Assembly (NCBI GenBank): GCA_029567325.1
Contig: JAKQLF010000117.1
Span: forward strand, 1 to 35,042
Direction of reading: 5' to 3'
Length of the DNA: 35,042 nt
DNA from: Bacteroidota bacterium
Lineage (GTDB): Bacteria > Bacteroidota > Bacteroidia > Chitinophagales > Saprospiraceae
Positions 16,047 through 33,058 of this stretch are shown here, one piece after another; position 1 is the stretch's first letter; each line of letters starts with the position of its first letter. The notes beneath the pieces were generated by a model that was not told the origin of the DNA, ran no database searches, and worked only from the letters and a program-made list of their open reading frames with translations. A program made the position numbers and the translations under genes.

Positions 16047-16176
16047 GTGGTCAGCTATCAGTTATCAGCTTTTTTGTCGTGAGCTTCGAGCTCCTCGAGC
16101 AGTGAGCTTCGAGTTTTTGAGAATGCCAAAAGATCTGTTTTTATTTTTTTAGCTTGGATGGCTGGCTCCTCCACAC
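16047..16176. repeat. Direct repeat, copy A
   Basis: Starts GTGGTCAGCTATCAG, continues through GAGCTTCGAG and CAGTGAGCTT, and includes the exact segment GAATGCCAAAAGATCTGTTT (16121-16140) before ending TGGCTGGCTCCTCCACAC. It matches copy B at 16322-16450 over most of its length with small insertions and deletions. It begins 6 bp after the gldH stop. Confidence 0.8.
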
Positions 16177-16286
16177 GTATAATGTTGTACCTACGGCACG
16201 AAAGCTTCTTTTTATTTTTTGATGTACCAACAGCTTGTCCCTAGTGGCACAATTTGTCTTTTCTAAAGGTGATTGAATAAAATAAA

Positions 16287-16302
16287 TTCGTGAATTCGTG
16301 GC
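16287..16302 (-). repeat. Dispersed 16-bp module
   Basis: TTCGTGAATTCGTGGC on the plus strand is the exact reverse complement of GCCACGAATTCACGAA at 349-364, and differs by one base from the copy at 211-226. It links the two repeat tracts at opposite ends of a 16-kb interval. Confidence 0.75.
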
Positions 16303-16321
16303 ATCCATTGGCCAGCTATCA

Positions 16322-16450
16322 GTGGTCAGCTTTCAGCTATCAGCAATCATTTTTTTGCAGCGAGCTTCGAGCAGTGAGCTTGGAGTTTTTGAGAATGCCA
16401 AAAGATCTGTTTTTATTATTTTGGAATTGAATGGCTGGGCTCCTACACAC
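16322..16450. repeat. Direct repeat, copy B
   Basis: Second copy of the ~130-bp repeat: GTGGTCAGCTTTCAG, GAGCTTCGAGCAGTGAGCTT, the exact GAATGCCAAAAGATCTGTTT segment and ATGGCTGGGCTCCTACACAC. It starts 275 bp after copy A in the same orientation and begins 19 bp after the 16-bp dispersed module. Confidence 0.8.
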
Positions 16451-25056: not shown

Positions 25057-25791
25057 ATGCGCATCATCTCTTGGAATTGCAACATGGCATTCAGAAAAAA
25101 GTATCATGCCATTATGGAATTAAAACCAGACGTTTTGGTGCTGCAGGAATGCGAAAACAAGGATAAATTGATCAAAATTTTGGAAGTCACCAATGCAAAT
25201 TGTTGTTATTGGCATGGCAACAATCCACATAAAGGAATCGCGGTTTTGGCGTTTAATGGTGTGCAAGTCAAGCTTATCAAAAATCACAATCTTGAATTTG
25301 AATACATTTTACCTTTGAAAGTTAGCTTTGGTAATGTAAAGTTCAATCTTTTTAATATCTGGGCAATGCCACATTTGACTTCCAATGCTCAGAGTTATGT
25401 GGGGCAAATTTGGTATGCCTTACCGCATTATGAAAAACTATTGAAGTCTCCAAGTATTTTGATTGGTGATTTCAACAGCAATGCCATATGGGATAAAAGT
25501 CGTAGAATGGGAAATCACTCCCATGTTGTATCCAAGCTCTCTGAGTATAAAATTCAAAGTCTTTATCACGATTTATACCTGATGGAACATGGTAAAGAAG
25601 CTAATCCAACCTTCTATCTGTATAAAAATATCAATAAACCTTACCATATGGATTACTGCTTTGCTAGTAAAAAACTTTTAAATCCAAATACCAGTCTGGA
25701 AATAGGTGGCCATGAAATATGGTCAAAGTTGAGTGATCACATGCCACTGATCATTGACCATATTGGGCCTGAAATCTCCATAAATCCATAG
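25057..25791 (+). CDS. Endonuclease/exonuclease/phosphatase family protein
   Basis: Protein of 244 aa of the EEP superfamily. Motifs: 'IISWNCNMAF' (metal-site asparagine), 'PDVLVLQECENKD' (metal-binding glutamate), 'SILIGDFNSNAIWDK' (catalytic D-x-N) and 'IWSKLSDHMPLIID' (terminal SDH). No signal peptide is visible. The family includes ExoIII-like DNases and phosphodiesterases; the substrate is not predictable, but the intact catalytic set supports an active enzyme. It lies 46 bp after the VOC gene on the same strand. The repeat array begins 6 bp after its stop. Confidence 0.9.
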   Translation: MRIISWNCNMAFRKKYHAIMELKPDVLVLQECENKDKLIKILEVTNANCCYWHGNNPHKGIAVLAFNGVQVKLIKNHNLEFEYILPLKVSFGNVKFNLFNIWAMPHLTSNAQSYVGQIWYALPHYEKLLKSPSILIGDFNSNAIWDKSRRMGNHSHVVSKLSEYKIQSLYHDLYLMEHGKEANPTFYLYKNINKPYHMDYCFASKKLLNPNTSLEIGGHEIWSKLSDHMPLIIDHIGPEISINP

Positions 25792-25797
25792 GATCAA

Positions 25798-25957
25798 GTT
25801 AATAAATTTAGCTAAATTTATGTATTACGGTTAATGAAATTAGCTAAATTTGTGTATTACAGTTAATAGATTTAGCTAAATTTATATATTATAGTTAATG
25901 TATTTAGCTAAATTTGTGCACTAGATGTTTTAAATTAGGTTAAATTTGATGATTATT
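25798..25957 (+). promoter_or_regulatory. 32-bp tandem operator-like array
   Basis: Four contiguous 32-bp units (25798-25829, 25830-25861, 25862-25893, 25894-25925) and a decayed fifth in exact register (25926-25957, 19 of 32 positions matching unit 1). Consensus core: TTAGCTAAATTTRTGTATTA. TTAGCTAA is invariant in units 1-4; unit 1 has the perfect 16-bp palindrome AAATTTAGCTAAATTT (25804-25819). A 32-bp period is close to three helical turns, so the palindromes lie on one face of the DNA. Units 2, 4 and 5 contain TAAATTTG, which fits the Bacteroidota -7 consensus TAnnTTTG (25845-25852, 25909-25916, 25941-25948). The last is 63 bp before the ATPase ATG. No spacers exist, so this is not a CRISPR. 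Confidence 0.85.
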
Positions 25958-26011
25958 TGATGTTCATTTAATTTTTCTCATTACCAAAGGTGTTTAGTCA
26001 ATAAAATTGAA

Positions 26012-27136
26012 ATGATTACAAGGCTTATAGAAAAAAATATTGAAAGTCAATTATTTAAAAATAAAGTAATTCTCATAACTGGTCCTCGGCAGACAGGAAA
26101 AACTGCTATAGCCAAATTATTTGCCAATAAATATCAAGGAACATACTATAATTGTGAACTAGGCGAAGTGAAATCGCTATTAGACTCCAATGCAGTAACA
26201 ACGTTAAGTCGATTGATTCCAAAAAGTAAAATGGTAATCTTTGACGAAGCCCAAGACATCCCTGATATTGGGAAAAAACTAAAAATATTATACGACGAAT
26301 TTCCAGAAATTCAAATCATTGCTACTGGATCTTCCTCTTTTGACCTTCTTCAAGAAACAGCAGAACCATTAACAGGGCGAAGTAGAGAATACAGACTTTA
26401 CCCTTTGGGACTAGAGGAAATAATTCAGACATCTGACATCATAGCAGCACAAGGTAATCTTGAAAATTTATTGAGATTTGGGGCATACCCAGAAGTTTTT
26501 TCGACATCAAACGAAAAAGAAAAAAAAGAAATCCTTCAAAATATTTCTAGTAATTATTTATACAAGGATACTTTAAAATTCCAAGACATACGCAAACCAG
26601 AATTGCTCAAAAAGCTACTTACTTTATTGGCATTGCAAATTGGAAATGAAGTAAGTTTGAATAAACTATCTAATGCTACCAATACTTCTGTGCAAACCAT
26701 AGAACGTTATCTTGATATTTTGGAGAAAAGCTTCATCATTTTTTCACTGTCTTCTTTTGCTAGAAACCTTTCCAAAGAAGTTGCAAAATCCAAAAAATAT
26801 TTTTTTTATGACTTGGGCATCAGAAATTCATTATTAAATAATTATAATACTCTACCACTAAGAAATGATGTAGGTCAATTGTGGGAAAATTTTTGCTTCA
26901 TCGAAAGAATCAAATTCAATGAATATAATCGATTAAATAAAAACATTTATTTTTGGAGAACTTATGATCAGCAAGAAATAGATCTTGTAGAAGAATTTGA
27001 TGGAAAATTGAATGCATTTGAATTCAAATTCAATTCCACAAAATTCAAGGCACCCGCCATTTTCTTGGATACATATGAAGGAAGTAAGATCAAAGTAATA
27101 AACTCCACGAATGTATTTGAAATACTAGAAGATTAA
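26012..27136 (+). CDS. AAA+ ATPase with DUF4143 domain
   Basis: Protein of 374 aa of the AAA_14/DUF4143 family. Walker A is 'GPRQTGKT' (24-31), Walker B 'MVIFDEAQD' (74-82), and 'IIATGSSSFDLLQETAEPLT' (102-121) is the sensor region. A winged-helix-like stretch, 'EVSLNKLSNATNTSVQTIER', follows, then the DUF4143 C-terminus 'QQEIDLVEEFDGKLNAFEFK', which resembles a PD-(D/E)xK nuclease core (ID...EFK). The family is abundant, often multicopy, and of unclear function. The ATG at 26012 follows the 32-bp operator-like array by 54 bp, so dedicated regulation, perhaps autoregulation, is likely. It converges with the LytTR regulator gene 27 bp away. Confidence 0.92.
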   Translation: MITRLIEKNIESQLFKNKVILITGPRQTGKTAIAKLFANKYQGTYYNCELGEVKSLLDSNAVTTLSRLIPKSKMVIFDEAQDIPDIGKKLKILYDEFPEIQIIATGSSSFDLLQETAEPLTGRSREYRLYPLGLEEIIQTSDIIAAQGNLENLLRFGAYPEVFSTSNEKEKKEILQNISSNYLYKDTLKFQDIRKPELLKKLLTLLALQIGNEVSLNKLSNATNTSVQTIERYLDILEKSFIIFSLSSFARNLSKEVAKSKKYFFYDLGIRNSLLNNYNTLPLRNDVGQLWENFCFIERIKFNEYNRLNKNIYFWRTYDQQEIDLVEEFDGKLNAFEFKFNSTKFKAPAIFLDTYEGSKIKVINSTNVFEILED

Positions 27137-27163: not shown

Positions 27164-27931
27164 TTAAATTTTAATACCCAATTTCCCAATCATTTCCACC
27201 AATTCATCTTTCCTCCTTCGAGCAACTTCAAGTTTTACACCTGAGGTCAATTCAACGAAAGTACCTTCAGATTTGATGAATTTTTTTAGATAATGTAAGT
27301 TAATTAAATGTGTATTGTGGATTCTGAAAAAGATAGATTTTGGTAGAATTTCTGCGAAATCTTTGAGCGATTTACTGCTCAACAAAGATTTTTGCTGATC
27401 TAGAAAGATATAAGTGTAATTACCACTTGCCTCCAAATAACAAATATTTTTGAATGGAATTACTTCCAATCCATTGGTAATGGGAACAACCATCCGATCT
27501 CGCTCAGGCTGGTTGGTTTGCATCAAGAGGAGCAATGAATCAATTTGGGTTTGTTGACTCATTTTATCCAACTGCTGTATGGCACGACTTACAGCTAGTC
27601 TCAACTCTGTGGCGTCAATTGGCTTCAATAGATAAGACAAAGCCGAGAGATTAATGGCTTCAATGGCAAATTGATTGTATGCAGTGGTAAAAATCAAAAT
27701 AAAATCTCGGTTTTCGCACTTTTCTATTATCTGCAAACCGCTCATACCAGGCATTTCAATGTCCAAAAACACGATTGATGGGCGCAAATTTTGTATACTT
27801 TCTAAACCAGATTCACCACTTTCACATTCTGCCACAATGGTCAATTCCGGACAAAACATTCCTATTTTTTTCACCAGAGCATTTCTGCTGTGATGTTCAT
27901 CGTCTACAATGATACAGTTGATTGATTTCAT
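27164..27931 (-). CDS. LytTR-family response regulator
   Basis: Response regulator of 255 aa. The receiver domain has the acidic pair in 'CIIVDDEHHSR', the phospho-acceptor D57 in 'IVFLDIEMPGM' and the conserved lysine in 'LLKPID'. The DNA-binding LytTR domain, about residues 150-250, includes 'ICYLEASGNYTYIFLDQQ', 'FFRIHNTHLINLHYLKKF' and 'VKLEVARRRKDELVE'. Phosphorylation by the adjacent histidine kinase would control binding at target promoters; the targets are unknown. Its start overlaps the kinase stop by 4 bp, so the two are translationally coupled. Confidence 0.95.
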   Translation of the reverse strand: MKSINCIIVDDEHHSRNALVKKIGMFCPELTIVAECESGESGLESIQNLRPSIVFLDIEMPGMSGLQIIEKCENRDFILIFTTAYNQFAIEAINLSALSYLLKPIDATELRLAVSRAIQQLDKMSQQTQIDSLLLLMQTNQPERDRMVVPITNGLEVIPFKNICYLEASGNYTYIFLDQQKSLLSSKSLKDFAEILPKSIFFRIHNTHLINLHYLKKFIKSEGTFVELTSGVKLEVARRRKDELVEMIGKLGIKI

Positions 27932-30843
27932 ACCAGTAATTTTATTTTCACAACAGTGCCTCTACCCTCTCCACTGATAACCTCCAAGGCATTTTTGACC
28001 ATTCCTTTATTGAATAAATCCACTCTTTCTTTGATCATTTCCATACCATAACTTTTGTGTCCGGAATTTGCTTGATTAGCAAAACCTTTACCATTGTCTT
28101 CAATGTTAAAAACCAACAAATTATCTACAATCCGAGCAGTTACAGATAACTTCCCTTCATCAACACCTTGCAATCCATGAATGATAGCATTCTCTACACA
28201 AGGTTGAATGATGAGGGGAGGAATGCGGTAGTGGCCATTGAGCACTTCTGGATCTACTTTGAATGAAGCCGTAAACCGATCATTGGATCTTAATTGTTCC
28301 AGATTTACATACCATTGAGTCGTCTGCCAATCTTCATGAAAAGGAACCACTTCATTTTTACTTGATTCCAATACTGCTCTCAGCAATCTAGCAAATTTGT
28401 TGAGGTAATCACTTGCACGAATAATGTCATTATCCAAGATCAGATTGTCGATACCCGACAAACAATTAAAAATAAAATGAGGATTCATTTGGGCACGCAA
28501 AGCTGCAGTTTTGTATTCATTGATTTTCCACTTTAACTCTGACTTTTGTTTCAGTGTTTTCAATCGTCGAGTTATGACATATGTAAATAAAAGAACTCCT
28601 AACACCAAGCAAAATAAGTAAAACGTCAAACTGTTGTACCAGGCAGGATGAATGGTCCAACTTGATTTCAACCATCGATTTTCCTCAGTATCACCGCTTA
28701 CTTTGATAAATAATTCATTAAAACCTGGAGAAATATTGCTCAAAGTGAGAGAGTGGTTTTGTTGTAAATTATGCCAAAAGTTTTCGTTACTGAACTTATA
28801 TTGAAAATGTGGACCATTTATATTATTTCCTGTCAATGCTCCAAAATACAGGGTCAATGCATTTTGAGTATATTTGAAATTTGCATTGTTTGGCCAAGGA
28901 ATTCTTGCTTCTCCCTGCATCGCATAATCTGCATATAATTTTGGCGTTTTATTTGGAAAATCAATGCCATCGGTTTTGATCCAAAACAAGTCATCTTTAG
29001 TGATTGCATAAAGTCGATTTCCTTTTATACAAATATTTTGAATTTGAGAAAGACGCTCATCCACTATAGAGACTATTCTATTATTTATTGGGTCTATGCC
29101 ATTGATACCTTCAGCAGAAAAAGTCCAAACAATGGCTTGATTATCAACTACAACCGTCTCATTGTGATTACTCAACATGCCGTCTTTAGCTGTAAATGAA
29201 CGCAAATTTCCTGTTTCTATATTCAATAAGGAAATACCATTGATGGCATCACTGATGATCAAAGTGCTGTCATCATATGTTTCAATATTTGCAATGTCTT
29301 GTGCATGTGGATAGTTGTTTAATGGCAGTTTTTGAATTTTCTTATCTTTTATTCGAAAGGAAAAGAGACCTCTATTGGTGGTGCTCCACACCAGATTTTG
29401 ACCACTATTGGTAAAAACCATGTCAGTAAGTGGTAATTCCTCCTTTGGTGAGAGCATCAATGGGATGAAAGTTTGCTGCTGTTTATCCCATTGATAAATG
29501 CCCTTATTTCTTATACGTAAAAATGTACCCAATTCATTTGAAATAACATTGCGAGGTAACATGCCCTCGCCAATTTGAATTTTTCGAGCTTCATTTTTTC
29601 CTTTATTTGCTTGCCAAACCTCGCTATCAGATATAATCCATCCATTCCCTTCATAATCTGTGGCTGTATATCGCAACTCCTTTATATTTTTGGAATCCTG
29701 AAGTGGTACGATTGATCTGGTATCATTATTTTCAAGTAGATACATTTTGTGAGATGTATAATCACTAATCAAAACACCTGGTCCCAAGGGATTGCCTTGA
29801 ACGGTAGCAAATGGCCCATCTTTCTTAGGAAGGTTTAGCTCCTGATTTAAATTGATATTTTGAGGGGTTAATAGGAGTAATCCAGTGCTAGTAGATACCC
29901 AATAATTGCCTTTAGAATAGCTAACACCTTGCACGATTCTACTGGATTCGGGTGCTTCCTCATAAATGGTTTCGAATTTCTCCGTGTTGTTATTGAATAA
30001 ATAAACTCGTGTCTCACTGGTACAAACGAATTGATCATCACTTATTCTTTTGAAAGATCTGATTGGGTCATAATGATGAGTGGCATGCTGCGTATTTACT
30101 TGATTAAATGTCCCTTTATCTATATCATACATCAATAGACCTTTATTGTAAGTTGTGATAAAGACCTTTTTGCGAATGCCATCGAAGTCAGTCACATAAG
30201 GTGATATACAGGTTTTGAGCAAATCTTTATTTAAAGGTTTTGTTTCATGGGTGCTAAGGTTGTATGAAAAATATTTCGAATCCAAATAAACGATCATCGT
30301 AACGCTATCTGTCCTTACAAACGAAACACTTGGATCATTAAAAAAAGGCAATTTTAAATAGGTTATTTTGTTTGATTTTACATCCAAAACAAAGATTCTT
30401 CGACTGGTTGATAAGACAAATTCATTTGATCTCCAATGCATGAAATTATTTAACAATTCGTTCTCTGACAAGCCAATTTCCTTGGTATTGATATGATCAA
30501 ATCCATTTACATCTTTGCGAAATTTACATAAGCCATTGGAGTGCAAAAACCACAATTCCTTATTTGGGGTCTCTATCATTTTGATGATAAAGTTTGAGCC
30601 AATAGAAAAGGTATCATTTGGATCCACTGTATAAGGAAAAAAATGATTTCCATCCCATCTATTTAAACCAAAATGAGCTTGAATCCATAAGAAACCAAAA
30701 CTATCTTCTTGGGTTTGAATGATGCGATTGGAGCTCAGCCCTTGTTCAGCACGGAATTGCCTTATCTGAAACTTTTGCGCAGATAAATAGCTTGAGCCAA
30801 CTAAAGCCATTGCTAAAACAAAGATGATTTTGCTTGCATTCAC
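27928..30843 (-). CDS. Two-component-propeller sensor histidine kinase (LytS-type)
   Basis: Membrane sensor of 971 aa. A signal peptide (1-22, ending SYLSAQ) is followed by a periplasmic region of about 640 residues with propeller repeats ('GLSSNRIIQTQEDSFGFLWI', 'GLLMYDIDKGTFNQVNTQ', 'RGLFSFRIKDKKIQKLPL'). A Y_Y_Y-like beta domain follows ('PHFQYKFSNENFWHNL'), then one membrane helix near 'SLTFYLFCLVLGVLLFTYVI'. The cytoplasmic His_kinase domain has H789 in 'QMNPHFIFNCLSGIDNLI', and the ATPase N-box is 'IIQPCVENAIIHGL' with 'EDNGKGF' as G1. Such sensors often read carbohydrate or envelope signals. It forms an operon with the LytTR regulator; no transport or glycosidase genes are adjacent. 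Confidence 0.94.
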   Translation of the reverse strand: MNASKIIFVLAMALVGSSYLSAQKFQIRQFRAEQGLSSNRIIQTQEDSFGFLWIQAHFGLNRWDGNHFFPYTVDPNDTFSIGSNFIIKMIETPNKELWFLHSNGLCKFRKDVNGFDHINTKEIGLSENELLNNFMHWRSNEFVLSTSRRIFVLDVKSNKITYLKLPFFNDPSVSFVRTDSVTMIVYLDSKYFSYNLSTHETKPLNKDLLKTCISPYVTDFDGIRKKVFITTYNKGLLMYDIDKGTFNQVNTQHATHHYDPIRSFKRISDDQFVCTSETRVYLFNNNTEKFETIYEEAPESSRIVQGVSYSKGNYWVSTSTGLLLLTPQNINLNQELNLPKKDGPFATVQGNPLGPGVLISDYTSHKMYLLENNDTRSIVPLQDSKNIKELRYTATDYEGNGWIISDSEVWQANKGKNEARKIQIGEGMLPRNVISNELGTFLRIRNKGIYQWDKQQQTFIPLMLSPKEELPLTDMVFTNSGQNLVWSTTNRGLFSFRIKDKKIQKLPLNNYPHAQDIANIETYDDSTLIISDAINGISLLNIETGNLRSFTAKDGMLSNHNETVVVDNQAIVWTFSAEGINGIDPINNRIVSIVDERLSQIQNICIKGNRLYAITKDDLFWIKTDGIDFPNKTPKLYADYAMQGEARIPWPNNANFKYTQNALTLYFGALTGNNINGPHFQYKFSNENFWHNLQQNHSLTLSNISPGFNELFIKVSGDTEENRWLKSSWTIHPAWYNSLTFYLFCLVLGVLLFTYVITRRLKTLKQKSELKWKINEYKTAALRAQMNPHFIFNCLSGIDNLILDNDIIRASDYLNKFARLLRAVLESSKNEVVPFHEDWQTTQWYVNLEQLRSNDRFTASFKVDPEVLNGHYRIPPLIIQPCVENAIIHGLQGVDEGKLSVTARIVDNLLVFNIEDNGKGFANQANSGHKSYGMEMIKERVDLFNKGMVKNALEVISGEGRGTVVKIKLLV

Positions 30844-32924: not shown

Positions 32925-33058
32925 ATGGGCAATGGTCTGCGACTGCAATTTGGCAATGGGCAATTTGGCAATGGGTAATGAGCAATGGGCAATTTGGCAA
33001 TTGGCAATTTGGCAATGGGCAATTCAGCAATTTCACAATATCGCAATTTCGCAATAAC
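32925..33058. repeat. GGCAAT-type short tandem repeat tract
   Basis: Some 130 bp built of a degenerate 7-8 bp pattern, GGCAATTT / GGCAATGG (for example GGCAATTTGGCAATGGGCAA near 32952-32971), drifting to GCAATTTCxCAATATC at the 3' end. It begins 5 bp after a stop codon and ends about 35 bp before the next possible start. The frames it opens are low complexity. Confidence 0.85.

Follow-up and report, generated by a model that had tools for sequence, protein, structure and literature searches.

What reads a tandem array of palindromic 32-bp repeats in front of a DUF4143 AAA+ ATPase gene, and what might such an array do for the gene? The question is raised by a 35,042-nucleotide stretch of Saprospiraceae DNA (here called the window) from a genome assembly of 5.8 Mb in 402 contigs. 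The original prediction, made from the window alone, described four 32-bp units with an invariant TTAGCTAA and a fifth, decayed unit in register, some of them embedding a Bacteroidota-type -7 box, and proposed that the ATPase represses or autoregulates its own gene, possibly as part of a defence-like cassette. Repeat analysis confirmed the layout. Four contiguous units, the proposed operator array, occupy positions 25797..25924 (period-32 self-match score 56), and each contains TTAGCTAA, starting at 25808, 25840, 25872 and 25904. By inspection of the sequence, the degenerate fifth unit follows in the same register at 25925..25956, with ATTAGG and TTAAAT on the two sides of a dyad axis at 25939.5. 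Tandem Repeats Finder scored the array at 175, with 3.7 copies of period 32 and 85% matches. All 4 occurrences of TTAGCTAA in the window fall within the array; 100 dinucleotide shuffles of the window contained a mean of 0.65, and 1 of the 100 reached 4. The sequence TAAATTTG, which matches TAnnTTTG, the Bacteroidota -7 consensus, was found in units 2, 4 and 5 as predicted (25845..25852, 25909..25916 and 25941..25948, forward strand), the last and gene-proximal copy being the candidate -7 box of the promoter. Other short tandem repeats with units of 7-15 bp (TTTCCGA, CAGCTAT and GCAATTTGGCAATGG families) were seen in the window at 98-424, 16051-16385 and 32945-33055.

Some other explanations for the array were tried and rejected. 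A genome-wide regulon was rejected on 2 grounds: a search of the own genome with the whole array region returned only itself at E <= 0.001, so that the array is not one of many scattered intergenic copies, and TTAGCTAAATTT, allowing up to 1 mismatch, gave 86 matches in that genome as compared with 113 for the reversed control. An RNA element was rejected after an Rfam scan of 25500-26200 gave no match at E <= 1. One word of the array resembles a LytTR motif; regulation by the neighbouring LytTR response regulator (27164-27931) was rejected as the arrays of relatives use other words. That response regulator and a 971-aa histidine kinase together span 27164-30843 and are convergent with the ATPase gene.

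The array proved to be a property of the gene family. A period-32 array (score at least 12) lies upstream of 131 of 229 close relatives; 170 of the 229 score at least 8 at period 32, and 59 score below 8. The threshold of 12 was reached by 63 of the first 119 distinct close relatives (those with scores >250 and at least 250 bp of upstream DNA, after L103, which is the same as locus L004, and exact duplicates had been dropped) and, in a replicate, by 68 of 110 further distinct loci (3 short and 25 duplicate loci dropped). As controls for the 119-locus set, a score of 12 was reached by none of 595 dinucleotide shuffles and by 1 of 207 regions upstream of the loci's other ORFs, and other periods reached it at a mean of 0.35 loci. 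The same period-32 test applied to the first 250 bp of the gene was positive in 0 of 229 cases, and applied after the stop codon in 7 of 226. In an initial search of 70 DUF4143 loci, near and distant, the best upstream period was 32 in 29, the next being 33 in 5. Among named loci from other genomes (Bacteroidota, Patescibacteria, Treponema and others; 80 sampled, 2 with short upstream DNA left out), the best period was 32 in 45 of 78, a count that includes L103, the repeat of L004. The original prediction had staked itself on close orthologues sharing the array, and an orthologue of 65% identity indeed has one.

Among the 131 arrays, 28 comprise less than about 2 units, 76 about 2, and 27 about 3 or more, and the median distance from the end of the array to the start codon is 23 bp. 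In the window this distance is 97 bp, as compared with a 10-90% range of 1 to 54 bp in relatives. The words themselves vary widely between loci, for example GGTGAATATATTCACC, GGAATATATTCC and TTTTGGATTATAATCCAAAA, and the exact period of 32 occurs with differing words in several phyla. The family conserves the architecture of the array, not its word. Since the words differ, the search for one DNA word that the original prediction suggested would miss most relatives.

We used 154 of the 229 loci, those with a period-32 score of at least 10 within 300 bp, to examine symmetry and covariation. A common frame was fitted to these arrays from DNA alone, with a palindromic model covering +-10 bp and with protein data unused; dyad 1 denotes the fitted axis and dyad 2 the axis 16 bp away. 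Mean palindromy was 3.76 bits at offset 0, partly by construction, and 3.00 bits at offset 16, and every other offset fell below -1.4 bits. Restricted to the innermost four to six pairs, which at offset 16 lie outside the fitted stretch, the mean there was 1.6 to 2.5 bits, compared with at most 0.05 bits at other offsets. It should be noted that any pattern of period 32 with one axis of symmetry must have another 16 bp from it, so that what we claim is symmetry of the whole unit. Judged by this symmetry, the 32-bp unit is to be read as 2 half-units of 16 bp. In the window, dyad 2 has TTTAG and CTAAA on either side of axes at 25811.5 + 32n. Its copy in unit 1, AAATTTAG followed by CTAAATTT, spans 25804..25819 about the axis at 25811.5, and repeats about 25843.5, 25875.5 and 25907.5, with the decayed copy about 25939.5. 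Dyad 1, an imperfect palindrome formed by TTATGTATTA and CGGTTAATGA, spans 25818..25837 about 25827.5, the axes again following at + 32n (25859.5 and 25891.5); its gene-proximal copy, about 25923.5, is decayed. As described below, dyad 1 is the proposed site of the winged helix and dyad 2 that of a nuclease-like domain. The core of dyad 2 is TTAGCTAA in only 11 of the 154 arrays.

The 2 dyads stand in a regular relation to the putative promoter. At 94 of the 154 loci TAnnTTTG occurs in the 130 bp upstream of the start codon. For 66 of the 94, the motif is centred +19 to +22 from dyad 1, where 12 would be expected from a uniform distribution. With 21 bp between its centre and the dyad 1 axis at 25923.5 (the decayed copy), the TAAATTTG at 25941-25948 has the phase usual in the family. 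A box at +19 to +22 overlaps dyad 2 and leaves dyad 1 over the spacer and upstream element. By consensus match, then, sites of the array appear to overlap the gene's own promoter.

The gene downstream, on the forward strand at 26012..27136, encodes a protein of 374 aa and is a DUF4143 AAA+ ATPase as originally predicted, with Pfam matches above cut-off to AAA_14 (residues 17-137) and DUF4143 (185-340) and a sub-threshold HTH_11 stretch at 200-241. NCBIfam gave no match for three proteins. An AlphaFold2 model made with 42 aligned relatives (mean pLDDT 92, pTM 0.90) has helices at 196-208, 216-223 and 227-239, which read as a winged helix, and a C-terminal domain with strands at 311-317, 322-329 and 332-338, which reads, from element order and motif, as PD-(D/E)XK-like. 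The top Foldseek matches to the model were the archaeal ATPase SSO1545 (2fna, E 1.3e-8), RuvB, and Cdc6/Orc1 on origin DNA (2qby, E 1.0e-6). Among the 229 relatives the Walker A/B residues K30 and D78 (numbered as in the window protein) are each kept in 229, and the PD-(D/E)XK-like residues E292, D324, E337 and K339 in 228, 229, 226 and 225, respectively; the window protein has all 6. Among named relatives of the gene, the nearest belongs to a Saprospiraceae MAG. Genes of this family are numerous within a chromosome, with 11 matches in one genome (G000).

The best PADLOC profile for the window protein, PDLC04789 (residues 1-372, E 4.5e-141), assigns it to PDC-S01, a phage defence candidate, and thereby to the same protein family. 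PMC12988326 likewise describes PDC-S01 as an ATPase fused to a PD-(D/E)XK domain and places it fourth in frequency among defence systems and candidates across prokaryotes, within a class of candidates most of which still await validation. The idea of a defence-like cassette gains a matched family from this assignment, and one of candidate status only; we use it as a lead to a predicted defence role.

If the ATPase itself reads the array, operator words should follow residues of the protein. Over the 154 arrays, operator and protein similarity were correlated with a Spearman coefficient of 0.33 (11,509 of 11,781 pairs, those below 60% identity). After removal of whole-protein similarity, the best protein segments fell within residues 219-235, and the single columns ranked 228 first, 188 second and 226 third; a pilot with 63 arrays, in which the winged-helix segment barely led, was too weak alone to localise the signal. 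By mutual information over 3740 column-position pairs, column 228 with base -6 was best and 226 with base -5 second. These columns belong to residues 226-228 (S V Q in the window protein; codons 26687..26695, forward strand), where the predicted recognition helix (227-239) begins, and the 2 bases lie in dyad 1. At base -6, N228 is accompanied by T in 37 of 38 arrays, K228 by G in 26 of 28, H228 by G in 5 of 5, A228 by A in 6 of 8, and E228 by C in 23 of 31 and A in 7. The least clear class is Q228 (C 10, T 3, A 2, G 1; n=16). D226 is accompanied by G at -5 in 73 of 74 arrays.

A second patch of residues tracks dyad 2. Base -13, which lies outside the fitted frame, follows residue 318: A with Y in 55 of 57 arrays and with H in 33 of 34, T with T in 24 of 28, and C with K in 15 of 17. 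With Q319, A is found at -15 in 33 of 40 arrays and T at -16 in 35 of 40. In the model, residues 318-319 (Y D; codons 26963..26968, forward strand) lie near D324, in the hairpin loop that joins strands 311-317 and 322-329 of the nuclease-like domain. The window protein, with S226, V227, Q228, Y318 and D319, is associated with the half-unit CTAAATTTATTAACTA. Its base -13 is A, as expected for Y318; base -5 is A, as at 16 of 42 S226 loci, and base -6 is T, as at 3 of the 16 Q228 loci.

These associations were also evident in controls for shared ancestry. Among 77 disjoint closest pairs, base -6 had changed in 27 of the 34 in which residue 228 had changed and in 5 of the 43 in which it was the same (p 1.3e-9; next of 314 columns, 4e-3), and the corresponding test of 318 with -13 gave p 1e-7 (next column, 2e-3). 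On a tree built without the 2 covarying protein regions, 28 of 46 changes at -6 shared a branch with a change of 228 (p 2e-12), 13 of 30 changes at -5 coincided with changes of 226 (2e-7), and 13 of 26 at -13 with changes of 318 (3e-6); 228, 226 and 318 were each the best column for their own base position. When bases were shuffled within protein clusters, the observed value was reached in 0 of 1000 shuffles for each of six pairs, these clusters being coarse (15 clusters, the largest holding 81 of the 154). Other positions behaved less simply. For base -7 the pair test ranked column 144 best and 227 second. In the same test, column 319 came outside the top four at -15 and tied with 309 for first at -16; on the tree, the best column at -16 was 146, and 319 reached no better than 5e-4 at -15. 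In dyad 2, the correspondence of 318 with -13 is the firm one, and that of 319 with -15/-16 is proposed less firmly. There was one observation in the tree test of the 154 arrays that we cannot explain: column 266 coincided with base -2 in 9 of 15 changes (p 2e-6), as strongly as 318 does with its base.

Loci held out from the fit, which lacked a good array, gave a further comparison. The dyad 1 test covered 42 of 75 such loci, the remainder having residue classes with fewer than five arrays, and in 22 of the 42 the class of site expected from residues 226/228 came first among eight. For dyad 2, at the 30 loci that also reached a site score of 8, base -13 agreed with residue 318 in 27 of 50 half-site bases, against a permuted mean of 16.2, and 1 of 2000 permutations reached 27. 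The agreement came largely with Y and H, for which A was found in 17 of 18, and was lower with T (5 of 14), K (4 of 10), Q (0 of 6) and V (1 of 2). The specificity of the sites is apparently set by the product of the same gene, a conclusion that these held-out results validate well for dyad 1 and only weakly for dyad 2.

Paralogues within a genome bear on the same point. Of 14 genomes, picked by hand because each has several close relatives, 11 offered at least two readable arrays; in each of the 11, whole units differ by eye from gene to gene, while dyad 2 halves are sometimes common to paralogues (L330 and L350, G307). In the own genome, proteins with the residues TSVQT/YD, ISSET/YT and IDAKT/TQ are found with three different arrays. 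Because words differ among the paralogues of a genome, a gene would have control of itself alone.

The reading that we consider probable on these grounds is that the ATPase represses its own gene by binding to the array, with one protomer on every 16 bp, and that specificity has diversified gene by gene. The array would be a private operator of its gene. The covariation points strongly to direct binding by the ATPase with its winged helix on dyad 1, and gives good reason to place the nuclease-like domain on dyad 2. Each protomer would span 16 bp, with its winged helix on one half-site of dyad 1 and a loop from its PD-(D/E)XK-like domain reading a half-site of dyad 2. Neighbouring protomers would then be head-to-head across dyad 1 and tail-to-tail across dyad 2, an arrangement that calls for a repeat of exactly 2 x 16 bp, and the resulting lattice would allow cooperative coating of two or more units. 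Since the units carry the promoter, with dyad 2 over the -7 box and dyad 1 just upstream, binding would block transcription, which leads us to infer autorepression of the ATPase gene. Such autorepression would restrain an effector that is likely to be costly, and a signal acting on the ATPase would release it; we speculate that a nucleotide state or a phage factor detaches the protein and so frees an active nuclease. The original proposal of autoregulation with overlapping operator and promoter thus finds good support in sequence (131 arrays among 229 loci, covariation at 2 protein patches and a phased -7-like box). It was largely right, and had missed the second dyad, the residue-base code and the changing words.

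A more far-reaching version, which we put forward only tentatively and consider less likely than not, takes the array as a lock. The nuclease would be stored there as an inactive lattice, its PD-(D/E)XK domains facing each other across dyad 2 and binding DNA sequence-specifically while leaving it uncut. A phage-triggered change in the state of the ATPase, or loss of the array DNA, would free promoter and effector together, and each paralogue would be keyed to its own array.

Could bound ATPase instead raise its own expression, or be held in store, the array being an activator or decoy platform? The window and some other loci have units upstream of the promoter unit (the 27 of 131 arrays with about 3 or more), and in a few genes, 7 of 152 by a clear margin, the own word recurs less than 400 bp downstream. 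However, the sites overlap the -7 box and the upstream promoter region, which is the usual layout for repression, and 104 of the 131 arrays have about two units or fewer. We regard this alternative as unlikely.

Another alternative, very unlikely in our estimation, is that a separate small repressor, for example one resembling RptR, binds the TTTAGCTAA words and that the ATPase is merely the regulated gene. RptR is the nearest described regulation that we found. According to PMC12255303, it represses the promoter of an E. coli defence island through three direct repeats of TTTAGCTAA, two of them over the -10 box; two repeats are enough for repression, and one represses only partially. The likeness to the window array is that repeated TTTAGCTAA palindromes lie over the known or putative promoter of a defence or candidate defence locus, and the dyad 2 word of the window is the RptR word itself. 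By the same source, RptR is a separate 9-kDa repressor of a restriction-modification island and its three 9-bp repeats lie within about 28 bp. In contrast, the words in the window are spaced at 32 bp in 32-bp units, words change from locus to locus, and the ATPase itself is the proposed reader. No ORF of at least 30 aa, and hence no RptR-type neighbour, lies between the flanking genes at 25057-25791 and 26012-27136. Moreover, the RptR-like word is rare as a dyad 2 core in the family, as noted above, and the words at dyad 2 vary with residue 318 of the ATPase; with units that differ among paralogues of one genome, each paralogue would need its own unlinked repressor.

We consider equally unlikely an iteron-like or origin-like array at which an Orc/Cdc6-like ATPase starts replication or recombination and promoter control plays no part. 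Arrays with a 22-bp period occur in a sister subfamily, and 22 bp is a length known for plasmid iterons. Orc1/Cdc6 proteins have an AAA+ core with a winged helix; we know of none with a PD-(D/E)XK-like reading loop, a promoter location or a two-fold lattice. Orc1/Cdc6, together with SSO1545 and RuvB, is among the nearest folds of the window ATPase by Foldseek, in the case of 2qby on origin DNA. Against an origin stand the many such genes per chromosome, the phasing of the array with a -7-like box, and the conservation of nuclease-type catalytic residues; Pfam searches of six neighbouring ORFs, one of them without a match, revealed no replication gene. Finally, neutral tandem duplications expanded by slippage in the promoter and read by no protein can be all but dismissed, for although the window has other short tandem repeats, an exact period of 32 with different words in several phyla and symmetry at one further offset only speak against slippage, and the residue-specific covariation already contradicts it.

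An ATPase that represses its own gene would have precedents, in that BirA, PutA and autoregulating DNA methyltransferases each combine an enzyme and the repressor of its own promoter in one protein. The proposed ATPase differs from these in its tandem 32-bp arrays and in a two-domain code diversified gene by gene. In our searches of open-licence PMC papers we found no description of such a code and lattice for DUF4143 ATPases, a family that is very common and little studied, and the passages of PMC12988326 and PMC13356809 that we consulted mention neither an operator array nor self-regulation for PDC-S01. With a readable operator one can tell where PDC-S01 genes are switched, expect the DNA-binding factor to be the protein itself, and know which specificity residues to change; it also offers the family a simple binding and reporter assay. 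The covariation further suggests that a nuclease-fold domain can read sequence alongside a winged helix, and that the code has changed many times. If the array is indeed a lock, one of the most widespread defence candidates would be a nuclease that docks at its promoter and gates itself, its two-part recognition code being open to evolution.

A single period for all DUF4143 subfamilies was rejected, as other periods, or no single one, were seen elsewhere. For PDLC04790, a phylum sample of 29 loci had 22 as its best period in 4, and in 19 nearer loci, partly overlapping those of the initial search, the top period was 22 in 4 and 23 in 2. For PDLC04788, period 33 was best in 7 of 14 loci, and 14 loci of PDLC04787 had no one shared period. 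Array period looks subfamily-specific, and an analysis of two-fold symmetry in these other subfamilies gave no clear signal. Many loci of the PDLC04788 and PDLC04790 subfamilies are without an array; the arrays that do occur there show that the association of array and DUF4143 gene is wider than the PDLC04789 subfamily. Long period-22 arrays (about two helical turns) with other words were seen at L374, L378, L379, L386 and L203, all with PDLC04790-type genes, and upstream arrays of period 33 and 40 at L213, L214, L223 and L226 (PDLC04788) and at L357, L366 and L368 (PDLC04787). PDLC04787 has archaeal members in Methanocaldococcus jannaschii, Sulfolobus acidocaldarius and Methanosarcina acetivorans.

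Two minor observations concern the neighbourhoods of individual genes. Neighbouring or divergent pairs of PDC-S01 genes were seen at L301/L355 (G180:C10) and at L353 and L354 (G080:C41, C81). The loci at which the operator word recurs within 400 bp after the ATPase stop codon, with a clear margin over 20 foreign words, are L345, L074, L316, L330, L254, L227 and L018; an operator on both sides of these few genes perhaps reflects a co-regulated next gene or a mobile cassette.
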